The notes under the pieces: model-generated | What the model was told of the DNA's origin: nothing | Database searches by the model: none | What the model saw: only the letters and a program-made list of their open reading frames with translations | IMG/VR virus record: IMGVR_UViG_3300032235_000664 | Span: 1 to 44,741 of that record | Length of the DNA: 44,741 nucleotides | DNA from: a virus | Strand: one strand, 5' to 3' | Part shown: piece by piece, positions 1,948 to 32,974 of the stretch | How the letters are laid out: every line of letters starts with the position of its first letter | Position numbering within the stretch: the first letter of the stretch is position 1 | Position numbers and translations under genes: made by a program

Positions 1948-3339
1948 TTATTCATTTTTTTTCTGTCGAGCCATGAATACATGTTTGGCCCATCCCGGTT
2001 TATGGCCGCGTTCCTTGCCGATACGCTCCAATTCCTCAAGCGTTCGGGCCTTTGCAACCTCAACAATTTTGTTTCGTTTGATCTGTTCTTGCGTAAGCTG
2101 AACAAGCTCGCCGTCAATCATCTTTGGAATGTCTGATGCGGTTGGATAGATGTGTCCGCACATCGGACATACCGGTAGAGGTTCATGAACACTGTAACAA
2201 CTTGGGCACTGCGACACCCTGACGGTTGGCTCTGCTGATTTTGAGCCTCGTTTGTTTCGCTTCTCACCGTCAAGCGACCATTGGCGATATTCCTCTGGCA
2301 TCCCATGCGTTATGACATTCCCCACATGATCCAAAATAATCGCCTGGGATTTTCCCTGTGATGGTCTGAGAGCTCTCCCGACTTGCTGGATATACAAGCC
2401 GAGCGATTGTGTCGGACGCAGAAGAATAGCGCAGCCAATGGCAGGGATATCTGTTCCCTCACTAATGAGGTCGCATGATGTCACCACGTCAACTGTTCCG
2501 TTTCCTAAGCCGTTCAGAATTCGAGCCCGTACATCGTCTTCCATTGAGCCGTCAACGGCGTAGGCTCTGTAACCTGCTCCCCGAAATTCCTCAGCTACGT
2601 GCTGAGCGTGAACAATCGAGACGCAGAAAACAACTGCAGGAGAACCAGGGCAAATGCGGTTGTAGTGCTGCACGGCATCACCTGTAATGGTTGGCTTGTC
2701 GACTATGTCAGCAACTTGTTTCACGTCGTAGTCTCCTCTGACTGTTCTAACTCCGGAAAGGTCAATTTTCTGACGCGGTGCAAAAACGACGGGTTTAACA
2801 AGAAACTTCATGTCGATAAGTTCAGGTACTTGAGGGCCCATGACAATATTGTCGAACACTCCACCTGCGTCTTGTCCGAGTCCTGTTCCGTCACCTCTGC
2901 ACGGCGTTGCTGTAACGCCAAGAATTCGAGCGTTCGGAAATGCCTCAACTACTTTTCTCCACGATCCAGCAACGGCGTGATGTGCTTCGTCGATAATGAT
3001 AAGGTCAGGAGGTGCGATTTTATCAAGCCGCTTAATAAGCGTCTGGACTGACGCCACCTGTACAGGCGCGTGAAGGTCAGCCGTGTATTTTGGATTGATG
3101 AGTCCATGATGTACACCTGCCTCTGTTAGCTTGATGGATGTCTGTCTGAGCAACTCGATACGATGTACTAAAATAAGGACGCGTTTTCCTCGCGCGGATG
3201 TTGATGCTGCGATGTATGAGAACACCACAGTTTTGCCGCCGCCTGTTGGAAGTACTAAAAGAGGAGCTCTGAATCCTTCAATATAGGATTGTCGAATTCC
3301 TGAAACGGCGTTTGTTTGATAGGGTCTTAGTGAGAGCAT
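1948..3339 (-). CDS. SF2 DEAD/DEAH-box helicase with zinc ribbon
   Basis: 463-residue superfamily 2 helicase. Visible motifs in order are LRPYQTNAV (Q-like), LPTGGGKTVV (motif I/Walker A, about residue 32), IIIDEAHHAV (motif II, DEAH, about 114), GVTATPCRGDG (motif III), SEGTDIPAIGCAILLRPTQS (motif V) and QQVGRALRPS (motif VI). A CPSC...CPMC zinc ribbon lies near the C terminus (about residues 380-400). The architecture matches the UvsW/RadD-like helicases of phages, which use ATP to remodel branched DNA in replication and repair. Its start overlaps the end of the methyltransferase frame by 13 bases, so the two are co-transcribed. Confidence 0.93.
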   Translation of the reverse strand: MLSLRPYQTNAVSGIRQSYIEGFRAPLLVLPTGGGKTVVFSYIAASTSARGKRVLILVHRIELLRQTSIKLTEAGVHHGLINPKYTADLHAPVQVASVQTLIKRLDKIAPPDLIIIDEAHHAVAGSWRKVVEAFPNARILGVTATPCRGDGTGLGQDAGGVFDNIVMGPQVPELIDMKFLVKPVVFAPRQKIDLSGVRTVRGDYDVKQVADIVDKPTITGDAVQHYNRICPGSPAVVFCVSIVHAQHVAEEFRGAGYRAYAVDGSMEDDVRARILNGLGNGTVDVVTSCDLISEGTDIPAIGCAILLRPTQSLGLYIQQVGRALRPSQGKSQAIILDHVGNVITHGMPEEYRQWSLDGEKRNKRGSKSAEPTVRVSQCPSCYSVHEPLPVCPMCGHIYPTASDIPKMIDGELVQLTQEQIKRNKIVEVAKARTLEELERIGKERGHKPGWAKHVFMARQKKNE

Positions 3340-4379
3340 AATCCTTCGTATTGTTGTATTGCTTTAAATATCTGTAGTGCCACCTGTGGAACTATTGCGT
3401 TGCCTCCTGCTTTGACTGACTCGGCTCTCCACTTAGAAAAGGTAATACCGTCCAGTCGGTCGGAAATCCCATCATCTCCATGACAAATTGGGGAGACAGT
3501 TGGGAACTCTGACCAGTTAGTTTGTTCATGAGTGGTGTCAGAGAACGCCCCATTTGACTCTTTTCGTTGTATGTCGTGCAGTATTTTTCTCCCTCCGCTG
3601 CGTTCGGAGTTGGAAGCATGTTCTCCGTCACCCACTTGGCTACGTGTTCCTCTAGGTTGCCCTTGTTCCTGTTCGCCAGGCTCTCGCTGTTCAGGTCGCA
3701 CCCGTTGACTTGGTTCGCTCTCGGAGTCGGAAGCAAGCCTTCTGGCATGAGTTGAACGAGCCTCGCTAATCCAACACTTCCGTCCTTCCCATTCTGATTT
3801 ATTTTTCTCGGTAGACCCGAAGTCATTTTGAAAGTGTCGTTCTTTCCTATCACCGCTCCTGCTGCCGCATCGCTGGCTAAAGGTGTCGGAAGCATTGTGT
3901 GCAACAAACCAAACTCTGTCTCTTCGGTGCGGCGCGTTGACGGCACAAGCTGGAAGTACATACGGTTGTACTTCGTACCCTTGAGCTTCCAACTCAGCTT
4001 GCACCTCGTGGAAGACCAACCCTCCATCCCAATTAACAAGCCCGAGAACGTTTTCCCCCACGACCCAACGCGGTTGAATCTCCCGTATTGCTCTAAGCAT
4101 TTCTGGCCATAAGTGGCGTTCGTCTTATTTTCCGAGTCGCTTTCCTGCAAGGCTGTATGGCTGACATGGAAACCCTCCTGTGAGGACGTCAATTCGTCCT
4201 CTCCAAATAGTGAAATCTGTTTTTGTAATGTCTTCATAAGATGTAGCTTTTGGCCAATAATACTTTAGGACGTGCTGACCAAAACTATTCCACTCACAGT
4301 GAAATTTGTTTTCCCAACCCATCCATTCGGCGGCTAAATCAAAACCGCCTATTCCTGAAAATAGTGACCCATGGTTCAT
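3327..4379 (-). pseudogene. C5 cytosine DNA methyltransferase frame with in-frame TAA
   Basis: From ATG at 4379 this frame reads MNHGSLFSGIGGFDLA (motif I, SAM binding) and GGFPCQPYSLAGKR (motif IV, catalytic Cys). It meets TAA at 4127-4125 and resumes in the same frame with DERHLWPEMLRAI, VVGENVLGL (motif VI), RRDRVWFVA (motif VIII) and finally GNAIVPQVALQIFKAI (motif X). Read through, it would be about 350 residues, normal for a Dcm-type enzyme. The first piece alone is 84 residues, and a possible restart is the ATG at 4100. The region between motifs VIII and X is low in complexity, has no clear motif IX, and is overlapped by another long frame (3392-4237). It could be a nonsense mutant, a split enzyme with re-initiation, readthrough, or a sequence error. 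The start has an ACACACAC leader. Confidence 0.75.
3392..4237 (-). CDS. LPTP-repeat protein overlapping the methyltransferase in another frame
   Basis: 281-residue frame without a stop, lying almost wholly inside the C5 methyltransferase gene but in a different frame. It starts MKTLQKQISLFGEDE at 4237. It has three repeats of the form M/L-L-P-T-P (MLPTPLASDAA, LLPTPRANQVN, MLPTPNAAEGE). It ends with LSPQFVMEMMGFPTDWTVLP and then SGEPSQSKQEATQ. From memory, phage proteins with LPTP repeats and an L-S/N-P-x-F-V-x-x-M-M-G-F-P tail are a recurring family, and the tail resembles motif IX of C5 methyltransferases. The likely role is to supply target recognition and motif IX to the other polypeptide, as in the two-polypeptide enzyme M.EcoHK31I. 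This is inference. The alternative is a chance open frame, which the ordered motifs argue against. Confidence 0.62.
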   Translation of the reverse strand: MKTLQKQISLFGEDELTSSQEGFHVSHTALQESDSENKTNATYGQKCLEQYGRFNRVGSWGKTFSGLLIGMEGWSSTRCKLSWKLKGTKYNRMYFQLVPSTRRTEETEFGLLHTMLPTPLASDAAAGAVIGKNDTFKMTSGLPRKINQNGKDGSVGLARLVQLMPEGLLPTPRANQVNGCDLNSESLANRNKGNLEEHVAKWVTENMLPTPNAAEGEKYCTTYNEKSQMGRSLTPLMNKLTGQSSQLSPQFVMEMMGFPTDWTVLPFLSGEPSQSKQEATQ

Positions 4380-7384: not shown

Positions 7385-8560
7385 TCACAATTTATTGAAA
7401 AACCAGCCCTCCCATTGAGCGAGCGCCGCCCTTTTTTCAGTAAGGTAGTCGTATCGGTCGTAGTGCTTTGAGCTGACATCTCCGCTGCTGTGATTCTGCA
7501 CCCTGTCGCGGTCGGTTTTGGATACTCCTGCAGCGCCCGAAAGAGTTTTCCATGTCCTCCTTAGATCGCGCGTTGTGAACGATTCGATTCCTGATTCGTA
7601 CACAAATGCTTTGCAAATCATGCGAAGGGTAGAGTCATCGGTTGGTTTGATTTCATTTTGGTAGGACGGAAAATACAAGCCGCTTCCCGTTCGCTTGCAC
7701 CAGGTGAGTCGACGAAGAACCTGAGCGCTGGCTGGAATCACGTGTTCGTTGCCCGTTTTTGTTTTAGGCCAATCAATGACCTTGACATTACGGTCAAGCA
7801 TGGAGGTATCGATTCGTAGGATTTCCTCCACGCGTTGACCCGTAAGAATGAGCAACTGCAACGCCACCAAATTACGAGGATCAGTGTTTCGATTGTAGTT
7901 ACGATTTCCGTGATGCAGCCATTTCCAGAACGCCACGAGCTCCTCTATGGAAAGCCATCGCGTGCCCTTTGTTTTTGGCTCTGTCGGAATCCCACTTGCA
8001 GGGTTTGCCGTGATGCCGAATCGCGCCTTCAATTCAGAGGCTGTACGATAATCGTTTTGCGATTTTAGCACCCAACCATAGCAGGCATGAATTGCCCCTC
8101 GCATGTGGTCAGCCATAGACGAAGCGCCACGTGCGTAAATTGGTCGGATAGCTTCCACGATATCAGATGTTGATACCTGTTTGGCAGGGGCGCTTTTTCC
8201 GATGACGTCAGCCATCCTAAACAGGGTGCGTCGAATCTCGTCCGTGCTACGCTTGCCCTGTGCTTCTAAGTGCGCTGTGTATTCCTCAATCAGCGCCGCT
8301 AGGGTTGCGCCTTTTTGCGGCCTGTTGAAAGGCACGCCCGACTTAAATTGCTCCCTAGCATCAGCCAATGACATATCTGGAAATGTTCCGATTTTTGCGG
8401 TCTTGCGTTTGCCATCAACCCACTTGACGGCATACCACTCTGGACGGACACCCTCTCGGATATTCAATGTGAGTCTGCCAGACCCACGTTTTCCACCGTC
8501 TGTCAAGACCTTGTTACAGCCAGCGCGGATTGCCGCGCGGATAGATGCATCAGTTAGCAT
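7385..8560 (-). CDS. int: Tyrosine integrase (P4/DUF4102-type)
   Basis: 391 residues. The N terminus (to about residue 75: VLTDGGKRGSGRL, IGTFPDMSLADAREQ) is the arm-binding DUF4102 domain. A core-binding SAM-like domain follows, then the catalytic domain with TGQRVEEIL (first Arg), RDLRRTWKT (box II) and VSSKHYDRYDYL, which contains the probable nucleophilic Tyr. Box II normally begins with His (HDLRRT); here that residue is Arg. The enzyme recombines attP with attB to integrate the phage. Its start faces an intergenic region holding a tRNA gene, the usual attP layout, and the excisionase-like gene converges on its 3' end. Confidence 0.92.
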   Translation of the reverse strand: MLTDASIRAAIRAGCNKVLTDGGKRGSGRLTLNIREGVRPEWYAVKWVDGKRKTAKIGTFPDMSLADAREQFKSGVPFNRPQKGATLAALIEEYTAHLEAQGKRSTDEIRRTLFRMADVIGKSAPAKQVSTSDIVEAIRPIYARGASSMADHMRGAIHACYGWVLKSQNDYRTASELKARFGITANPASGIPTEPKTKGTRWLSIEELVAFWKWLHHGNRNYNRNTDPRNLVALQLLILTGQRVEEILRIDTSMLDRNVKVIDWPKTKTGNEHVIPASAQVLRRLTWCKRTGSGLYFPSYQNEIKPTDDSTLRMICKAFVYESGIESFTTRDLRRTWKTLSGAAGVSKTDRDRVQNHSSGDVSSKHYDRYDYLTEKRAALAQWEGWFFNKL

Positions 8561-8818: not shown

Positions 8819-8855
8819 CTCTGTCAGAAGCAGGAATCGACACTGGAAAGGGTCG

Positions 8856-8927
8856 TAGCGGAGACAGGACTCGAACCTGTGGCCTCCTGATAATGAGTCA
8901 GGCGAGCTACCACTGCTCTACTCCGCA
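8856..8927 (-). tRNA. tRNA with anticodon CAU, initiator-like features
   Basis: 72 bases fold as a full cloverleaf: acceptor GCGGAG/CTCCGC, D stem GAGC/GCTC with GG in the loop, anticodon stem CCTGA/TCAGG with loop CTCATTA (anticodon CAU), a 5-base variable loop, T arm ACAGG-TTCGAGT-CCTGT and discriminator A. CCA is not encoded. Position 1:72 is an unpaired U-U, and pair 11:24 is A-U; both are initiator tRNA traits. The three G-C pairs next to the anticodon loop of true initiators are missing. It may be a diverged phage fMet tRNA, an elongator Met or Ile2 tRNA, or a tRNA captured at the attachment site. The stop codon of the 62-residue gene lies inside its 5' end. Confidence 0.85.
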
Positions 8928-31140: not shown

Positions 31141-31578
31141 TTAGTTTTTTAATTCGTTTTCAATTTGGTTGGCGAACTGCCAGTTTCTGCAAGTTTTGTA
31201 TGATTGCTTATGTCCGTTCCAATGATCATATGTAGGCATCTCTACAATTTTAATGCGCTCCGCATTCATTATCGTTATTGAAATACCATTCTCATTAAGC
31301 ACTAGCTCAGAACCTTCCTTGTATCGGAAAGCCAAGTGAAAATTGTTTTCCCATTTGTAAGGATAGGCCACTCCGCAAATGTAGAAGTATTTCGCTTCTG
31401 CCTCGTCCAATACAATTGGAATATGTTTCGCTCCTTTGTTGTCAATCTGTTTGGAATAACTTCCCGTCAAGCAGCGTGCGCAATGAACGTTTAGATTCAC
31501 TCCTGTTACGTACTTCATCCAAAGATATTTGAATGGTGTTTCCAGTTTAATATACTGGATTGTTGGTTGCATACTCAT
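31141..31578 (-). CDS. Unknown protein between ParB-methyltransferase and terminase
   Basis: 145 residues from ATG at 31578, or 143 from ATG at 31572. A longer frame to 31869 only repeats the overlapping upstream gene in another frame. It contains NVHCARCLTGSYSKQIDNKG, with a C-x-x-C pair, and a beta-rich middle (NFHLAFRYKEGSELVLNENG). No domain is recognised. It overlaps the end of the ParB-methyltransferase gene by about 30 bases and is 3 bases from terS, so it is co-expressed with both. Confidence 0.65.
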   Translation of the reverse strand: MSMQPTIQYIKLETPFKYLWMKYVTGVNLNVHCARCLTGSYSKQIDNKGAKHIPIVLDEAEAKYFYICGVAYPYKWENNFHLAFRYKEGSELVLNENGISITIMNAERIKIVEMPTYDHWNGHKQSYKTCRNWQFANQIENELKN

Positions 31579-32974
31579 ATACTTTCTTAAATGTTTCAAG
31601 GGCACGCGGCCCATATTTGTGTTTTCCATTTGGTAGCGGAAGTGAAAACTCGCGCTCAATAGATTTGAGCATTTCATCGCCTGGCATCTCATAAACTTTC
31701 TTGGCGACAATCTGCCATGAGGATTTGCCAACGTACTCCTCGTGGTGCACAATCTCAAACCCACATGATGTAATAACGTTTTTTGCCATTTCTCTCGTGT
31801 GGAATTTCTGATAAAACCACTCGCCTGCCCGAAACAAAGCGCTGAATCCATTGCCGTCCAAAAACTCAACGTTGCGGTGCTTGATGTCCTTTTGCTTCCT
31901 ATTTCGTTTTAGCCCCTCAATAAACTCCCAACGTCGTCCACTAATGTAAAGCTTTCCACCTTTGCGGAGCAGTGCGTTACAAACTACCACAACATCACGC
32001 TCTGCCTCGACTGTATCAACAGAGTTAAGAACACTGTCACAGATAACTACGTCGTACCGGCGCAACGTGATTACATCTAGAAGGTGGTCAACCATTTTAT
32101 CAACGGCCTTGATATTTATACTGTTGCCTGTACGGTAATAAAATTCTAGTCCGCCAATATCATATCCAAGACGTGCCAGCCGTTTTAGATAGTCTGCTTG
32201 TCCACATCCAAAATCAAAAATCTTGTCTTTGCGCGTAATCTCTGGAATGACAAATCGCTCGTACAAAGTAGAACGGGAATGACTATCTGAACGAAGTCTA
32301 AATTTCTGCGCAAAACTCTGAACGTAGGTATTCTTTTTGAGGTGACTGTAGCTAAACTCTCCATACGTATCGGAGAGGAACTTAATTGCTTTCTCCTTTT
32401 TTTCATTGCTGATGTAGTAGACCAGAAGTGGGCGGTTCATAGTCTTCATAGCAACAGCGTACTGATGTCCGGAAATCACCTCGCCATCCTTACATGCGAT
32501 ACATCCAGAAAATTGACCGTGTCGCATGAATAGCAAATGAATCATTGAGCGAGCGTTCGCTCCCAACGGTAGATGATCGTAGCTTATTGTTGAAGGTCCT
32601 ACGACACAGAAGCCTTCAATAGATGACAGTTGAACGCTCACCTCAACGGTTGCGTCAATGTCAGAACTGTTATGAATCTGGTTAAATCTCACCTCGTCCT
32701 CCTCGGACACGTTGTGCATTACAAACGCTGGGAGAGTAATCAACCCGATAGACCTTGCAGCCGTTGTGCGTTGGTGACCAGCAATAATAGTTCCGTCACT
32801 GTTTAGAATAATCGGCTTACCAAACCCTACAAATTGAATGCTATCTCGAAGTTGCTGAGATTTGCTAGGTTCAATCCTCCTTGGATTATACGCTGCAGGG
32901 TGTATCTTACTCACATCAATCATTCGCAAACCAATTTCGTTCAACGAATCCGGCCAGAGTTCCATTGTCGTCAA
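31547..32974 (-). CDS. ParB-like domain fused to SAM methyltransferase-like domain
   Basis: 475 residues. The first 120 form a ParB/sulfiredoxin-type domain: KIHPAAYNPRRIEPSKSQQL, then NSDGTIIAGHQRTTAARSIG. A second ParB-like GEVISGHQYAVAMKTMNRP appears at about 165-185. From about 245 a class I SAM-dependent methyltransferase begins: KIFDFGCGQADYLKRLARLG (motif I), YDVVICDSVLNSVDTVEAER (motif IV region). The motif I region recalls the putative methyltransferases associated with DNA phosphorothioation. A DNA-modification or self-protection role is inferred. Its start lies inside the end of the upstream ParB gene (59-base overlap). Confidence 0.75.
   Translation of the reverse strand: MTTMELWPDSLNEIGLRMIDVSKIHPAAYNPRRIEPSKSQQLRDSIQFVGFGKPIILNSDGTIIAGHQRTTAARSIGLITLPAFVMHNVSEEDEVRFNQIHNSSDIDATVEVSVQLSSIEGFCVVGPSTISYDHLPLGANARSMIHLLFMRHGQFSGCIACKDGEVISGHQYAVAMKTMNRPLLVYYISNEKKEKAIKFLSDTYGEFSYSHLKKNTYVQSFAQKFRLRSDSHSRSTLYERFVIPEITRKDKIFDFGCGQADYLKRLARLGYDIGGLEFYYRTGNSINIKAVDKMVDHLLDVITLRRYDVVICDSVLNSVDTVEAERDVVVVCNALLRKGGKLYISGRRWEFIEGLKRNRKQKDIKHRNVEFLDGNGFSALFRAGEWFYQKFHTREMAKNVITSCGFEIVHHEEYVGKSSWQIVAKKVYEMPGDEMLKSIEREFSLPLPNGKHKYGPRALETFKKVYEYATNNPVY

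Follow-up and report, generated by a model that had tools for sequence, protein, structure and literature searches.

Does this phage locus encode one cytosine methyltransferase in two overlapping frames, and is the second of these frames a gene in its own right? The window, that is, the whole stretch of DNA analysed here, spans 44,741 nucleotides (positions 1 to 44,741 of IMG/VR record IMGVR_UViG_3300032235_000664). The locus lies on its minus strand, where both an outer frame, MT, and an inner frame, LP, are present, LP being in the +1 register relative to MT (Table 1).

Two nested frames of a predicted methyltransferase

The outer frame is a predicted C5-cytosine methyltransferase of the PF00145 family, with its motifs in the C5 order I, IV (PCQ), VI (ENV), VIII and X. 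As the earlier note, made from the sequence alone, had described, motif IX is missing from this frame, and a filler stretch precedes motif X; this filler, which links motif VIII to motif X, lacks conservation, and selection there acts on LP. An inner frame open for 281 codons with three ordered LPTP sequences had also been noticed, and both were found again on the minus strand. LP is nested wholly inside MT, so that the dual-coded region is the entire LP frame, 846 bp, and not the approximately 700 bp estimated before. Profile searches of both frames, which the earlier note had proposed, assigned MT to PF00145 and LP to PHROG_1008 (“DNA methyltransferase”), the latter profile being matched by LP residues 14-263. 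In other collections (Pfam, NCBIfam, and PADLOC), LP has no significant match, the PADLOC profile MTase_II covering the end with motif IX at E = 0.034. The LP profile matched no PDB sequence, and AlphaFold models of LP alone are of low confidence (pLDDT of 52 for the full-length protein and 59 for a one-module relative); a PDB fold search with the model of the one-module relative found nothing. The conserved N-terminal part of LP has four invariant residues (C47, W74, W83, and R92), and its C-terminal part ends with ...LSPQFVMEMMGFPTDWT. The 3′ end of MT shares 13 bp (3327-3339) with the start of a helicase gene (1948-3339).

Table 1 Features of the MT/LP locus in the window
Feature	Position	Strand	Basis or remark
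MT frame, predicted C5-cytosine methyltransferase large (catalytic) subunit	3327..4379	-	PF00145, E = 4.7e-45; one TAA inside
MT part 1, 84-aa ORF closed by the in-frame TAA; contains motifs I and IV	4125..4379	-	
MT part 2, 257-aa ORF opening at the next ATG past the TAA; contains motifs VI, VIII, and X	3327..4100	-	
MT motif I (FSGIGGFD)	4338..4361	-	Direct reading; conserved in 64 relatives
MT motif IV (GGFPCQPYS, catalytic Cys)	4152..4178	-	Direct reading; conserved in 64 relatives
In-frame TAA, MT codon 85	4125..4127	-	GAA/GAG (Glu) in relatives
MT motif VI (ENV)	4047..4055	-	Direct reading; conserved in 64 relatives
MT motif VIII (APHRRDRVWFV)	3903..3935	-	Direct reading; conserved in 64 relatives
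MT motif X (GNAIVPQV)	3381..3404	-	Direct reading; conserved in 64 relatives
LP frame, 281 aa, proposed specificity/motif IX subunit	3392..4237	-	PHROG_1008, E = 8.3e-28
Conserved N-terminal part of LP (aa 44-111); the DNA also encodes MT motifs VI-VIII	3905..4108	-	
LPTP anchor 1, LP aa 116-119	3881..3892	-	Direct reading
LP module 1 (LASDAAAGAVIGKNDTF...), family F7	3734..3880	-	Family at 11 loci
LPTP anchor 2, LP aa 169-172	3722..3733	-	Direct reading
LP module 2 (RANQVNGCDLNSESLANRNKGNLEE...), family F6	3617..3721	-	Family at 12 loci
LPTP anchor 3, LP aa 208-211	3605..3616	-	Direct reading
LP module 3 (NAAEGEKYCTTYNEKSQMGRSL...), family 42	3500..3604	-	
LP motif IX (LSPQFVMEMMGFPTDWT)	3449..3499	-	Profile-profile match to 47 ordinary C5 methyltransferases

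The interrupted copy in the window

MT had previously been read as a single open frame. In the window, an in-frame TAA (4127-4125), unreported until now, splits this copy into 84 and 257 aa, and the frame is thus interrupted. The two halves match PF00145 separately (E = 1.7e-17 and 4.1e-18). In the LP frame, the same substitution is not silent, turning Lys into Asn. A relative with an identical flanking 24-mer (L277) has GAA at this site; nearly all relatives are without a stop there, and MT is intact in 78 of the 80 relatives selected by LP. In two relatives, L080 and L082, a short in-frame insertion within motif IV contains a TAA at MT codon 82 (GGFP*LCQPYS), and LP is intact. Recoding of the stop was considered and rejected as unlikely, since TAA is the usual stop of the window genes, terminating 33 of the 46 listed ORFs, and the only tRNA is a tRNA-Met, with no suppressor tRNA.

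The MT of this copy is therefore either decayed, rescued by a restart at the ATG at 4100, or affected by a sequence error. Were it decayed, the pair in the window might be a remnant, with MT a pseudogene and LP open merely by chance. The stop itself, set against the stop-free MT frames of the 78 intact relatives, is what such decay would leave behind, and L080 and L082 show similar damage. We nevertheless lean against this possibility: the lesion is a single substitution, possibly a sequence error, at a codon that is unlikely to be recoded, TAA being the ordinary stop here, and it leaves two halves that are still recognizable as PF00145 and an intact LP.

Both frames are under selection

Three sets of relatives were assembled. 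Searching viral contigs with LP gave 402, of which 80 were kept; searching viral contigs with MT alone, which introduces no bias towards LP, gave a set from which 80 were likewise kept; and searching bacterial genomes with LP gave 40. LP is open from its ATG through motif IX in all 80 MT-selected relatives. When the MT sequences of 76 relatives were reshuffled synonymously, the +1 frame was open in none of 7,600 trials, and the motif IX signature MG[FY]P arose in 30 of the 7,600, versus 76 of the 76 real relatives. In the reverse test, MT was open across the variable region of LP at 158 of 158 loci but in only 0.6% of LP-synonymous reshuffles. The third frame over the same region is open at none of the 158 loci, and the longest +1 stretch in 47 ordinary C5 methyltransferases has a median length of 55 aa.

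Codon positions point the same way. In the overlap, third positions of MT are second positions of LP, and third positions of LP are first positions of MT. At MT third positions, diversity amounts to 0.48 and 0.55 in the two MT-only ends; it drops to 0.26-0.32 where the conserved LP N-terminus overlaps and to 0.117 under LP motif IX. In the middle of the overlap, diversity is highest at MT position 1, which is LP position 3. Homologous modules are 80% identical in the LP reading versus 44% in the MT reading, and their differences per codon (0.19, 0.14, and 0.45 at LP positions 1, 2, and 3) mirror those of the MT-only control. It should be noted that the codon tests drew on related sequences, and the counts are not independent events; the effects, however, are large. 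Selection thus acts on MT only at the ends, on both frames in the flanks, and on LP only in the middle, where MT is merely kept open, presumably for the sake of the downstream motif X. Constraint in both frames, which the earlier note had suggested measuring, is accordingly borne out by codon-position diversity and by synonymous reshuffling alike. The same note had named relatives with a broken LP and an intact MT as evidence that would count against its reading; only two of the 80 LP-selected relatives are of this kind, L014 with a TAG at LP aa 45, where the LP of the window has Gln, and L053 with a TGA at LP aa 65, MT being open in both. We regard the LP frame as a gene whose predicted product, presumably translated, is under selection and contains motif IX.

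Motif IX resides in the inner frame

The location of motif IX was the central claim of the earlier note, and it holds across the family: MG[FY]P is found in LP at 165 of 167 loci and in MT at none of the 167. In a profile-profile comparison with the 47 ordinary methyltransferases, the C-terminus of LP aligned at motif IX with an E value of 2.6e-6 and a probability of 88.7% (sqLNPxFVxEMMGFPxxWT in LP versus RrLTPREaARLQGFPDxf in the ordinary enzymes). Read in the MT frame and compared in the same manner, this stretch of DNA yielded a probability of 0.4% and an E value of 0.14. With only five ordinary enzymes in the comparison, the match was weak (E = 0.09), though still aligned at motif IX.

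LP proteins carry exchangeable modules

The region of LP proteins that separates the conserved N-terminal part from motif IX is made up of one to six modules of approximately 36 aa, bounded by LPTP sequences. The 155 LP proteins analysed yielded 433 modules, which fall into 121 families. Family F0, present at 55 loci, occupies the first, middle, or last position and has 19 different families as left and 24 as right neighbours. Furthermore, 451 module pairs are at least 85% identical between LP proteins that have no other module family in common. Two modules of one family occur together in just one of the 155 proteins, compared with 11.5-13.9 expected and a minimum of three in 5,000 shuffles. 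Modules are thus exchanged between phages and are non-redundant. Such exchange without redundancy is what would be expected of independent DNA-target-recognition cassettes, and we infer recognition from this pattern. If, instead, LP were the motif IX or small-domain subunit and its modules merely structural repeats or spacers, the enzyme would be monospecific. That proposal could draw on the low confidence of the LP fold models and on the putative status of recognition, but it appears unlikely: whole modules swap between otherwise unlike proteins, the LP reading is conserved within module families to the extent given above, and redundant copies are avoided, which a spacer would tolerate.

A putative overprinted two-subunit enzyme

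With both frames under selection, motif IX confined to LP, modules that are exchanged and non-redundant, and a +1 layout conserved across phyla, the pair is in our judgement likely to be an overprinted two-subunit C5-cytosine methyltransferase resembling M.EcoHK31I, probably multispecific, with LP as the proposed specificity subunit and with a putative methylating activity. MT would supply the catalytic large subunit, comprising motifs I-VIII, an unconstrained linker, and motif X. LP, translated from its own ATG, would supply the specificity subunit, consisting of the conserved N-terminal part, exchangeable recognition modules of approximately 36 aa, and motif IX. The two products are envisaged to bind each other and assemble into a single enzyme, in which each module might add one recognized sequence, so that phage DNA would be shielded from several host restriction enzymes. 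Cassette swaps would then change the set of recognized sequences, and every swap would also rewrite the MT linker.

Since LP is invariably in the +1 frame relative to MT, the two could in principle be joined by programmed +1 ribosomal frameshifting, fusing motifs I-VIII of MT to the modules and motif IX of LP. We consider this very improbable. At 80 of 80 loci, an ATG located before MT codon 80 begins the open LP frame, and the LP N-terminus shows conservation and constraint ahead of any point at which a shift would be useful; moreover, a fused chain would lack motif X, a conserved element of MT. GGAGG, a Shine-Dalgarno-like sequence, precedes the LP ATG at two loci of Bacillota (L084 and L211), an arrangement more in keeping with separate initiation than with a frameshift. 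There is a published phage methylase with a stop-free insert that contains an ORF in another frame (PMC11855218), but that LP is likewise a selfish insert, comparable to the HNH endonuclease hidden in the ShiLan methylase, is scarcely credible, given that LP has no Pfam HNH or zinc-finger match, that motif IX is in LP and missing from MT, and that no locus without LP was found among the 80 MT-selected loci.

Comparison with known split and multispecific methyltransferases

M.EcoHK31I, to which the earlier note had likened the locus, has the coding sequence of its small polypeptide nested within that of the large one in a different reading frame, and LP is likewise encoded inside MT in another frame. 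In this enzyme, which recognizes YGGCCR, the large subunit contains motifs I-VIII and X, the smaller polypeptide contains motif IX alone, and the predicted target-recognition domain is placed in the large subunit (PMC3404938). The division of motifs is the same in the MT/LP pair, with only motif IX on the second polypeptide and I-VIII and X on the first, and to this extent the likeness stands. It fails for the recognition domain, since MT has filler where the large subunit of M.EcoHK31I is predicted to bind its target, whereas recognition-like modules, multiple and exchanged, are found in LP; the enzymes are here compared by description. The shared motif division and the different site of the recognition domain suggest that the pair works like M.EcoHK31I with another allocation of specificity. 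Moreover, M.EcoHK31I belongs to a restriction-modification system, whereas MT and LP are found in phages and probable prophages.

The alpha and beta chains of M.AquI similarly distribute one enzyme over two polypeptides, but the split falls in the variable region and places both IX and X on the second chain (PMC3404938). In the MT/LP pair, unlike M.AquI, motif X stays on the MT chain and the two genes share DNA. The arrangement of LP recalls the multispecific C5 methyltransferases of the Bacillus phages SPbeta, phi3T, and rho11s, which have several recognition domains in tandem ahead of motif IX. These enzymes are single chains, whereas in the MT/LP pair the modules, whose role in recognition is putative, lie on a separate overprinted subunit and the catalytic motifs in the other frame. 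Work by Behrens (1987) on such enzymes is cited in PMC4081073. In the ShiLan methylase, a stop-free stretch holds a functional-looking ORF for a homing endonuclease in another frame (PMC11855218), whereas LP, which gave no Pfam HNH or zinc-finger match, is considered part of the methyltransferase itself.

A further counterpart is a gene pair of Paenibacillus larvae phages (e.g., Tadhana gp54/gp55), which belongs to the same PHROG_1008 family and has the same nested +1 layout. The passages located in the P. larvae phage genome paper name two DNA-cytosine methyltransferases and do not discuss overlap, motif IX, or modules (PMC6070908). Our literature search, which covered open-access articles, returned no account of the MT/LP overlap beyond mentions of EcoHK31I.

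Distribution of the nested layout

The earlier note had envisaged a phage version of M.EcoHK31I; the pair is no isolated case and represents a widespread family with hundreds of phage and prophage loci. The nested +1 layout was found in Bacteroidota genomes, in Paenibacillus and Lacticaseibacillus phages, in one marine phage, and in Synechococcus phage Yong-M2-251 and Acidovorax phage Alfacinha3. In samples of approximately 400 genomes each, PHROG_1008 was matched in 3 genomes of Bacteroidota, 4 of Bacillota, and 28 of Pseudomonadota. The MT signature is present in the overlapping frame at nearly all of 39 sampled PHROG_1008 loci, an exception being L244, a weak match with four stops, where the signature is absent. 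No stand-alone LP was seen among the loci gathered across phages and bacterial genomes. In the Pseudomonadota/cyanophage branch (L239, L278, L279, and L280), the start of LP, marked by a conserved WLY(I/V/L)P, lies at the extreme 5′ end of MT, and nearly the whole gene is dual-framed.

We tend to view the pair as an ancient phage family with hosts in at least four phyla, whose specificity subunit would exist solely in overprinted form and whose swappable cassettes, altering both proteins with each exchange, would make up a compact, combinatorial, multispecific anti-restriction enzyme. If so, the lone laboratory case of a motif IX on a nested second polypeptide would become a widespread phage family, and the overlap, at approximately 0.6-1.1 kb and with about 30% protein identity across phyla, would be one of the longer same-strand overlaps conserved in phages that infect cellular hosts. 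The modules would then constitute a natural set of approximately 120 short recognition-like units, the specificities of which could be read by methylome sequencing.

Annotators currently call one or the other frame and seldom both. Some PHROG_1008 records have both frames annotated as methyltransferase, whereas many others have only one. In Acidovorax phage Alfacinha3 (L280), only the LP frame is annotated, and in Bacteroides phage BS-TP4 (L001), only MT; the annotation of marine phage KT997847 (L085) has an MT cut to 80 aa together with LP. Elsewhere in the window, an integrase gene (7385-8560) adjoins the tRNA-Met (8855-8927), a hint of either a temperate phage or an attachment site. On the minus strand, the long ORFs 31141-31869 and 31547-32974 share approximately 320 bp and possibly represent another overlap or a frameshift.
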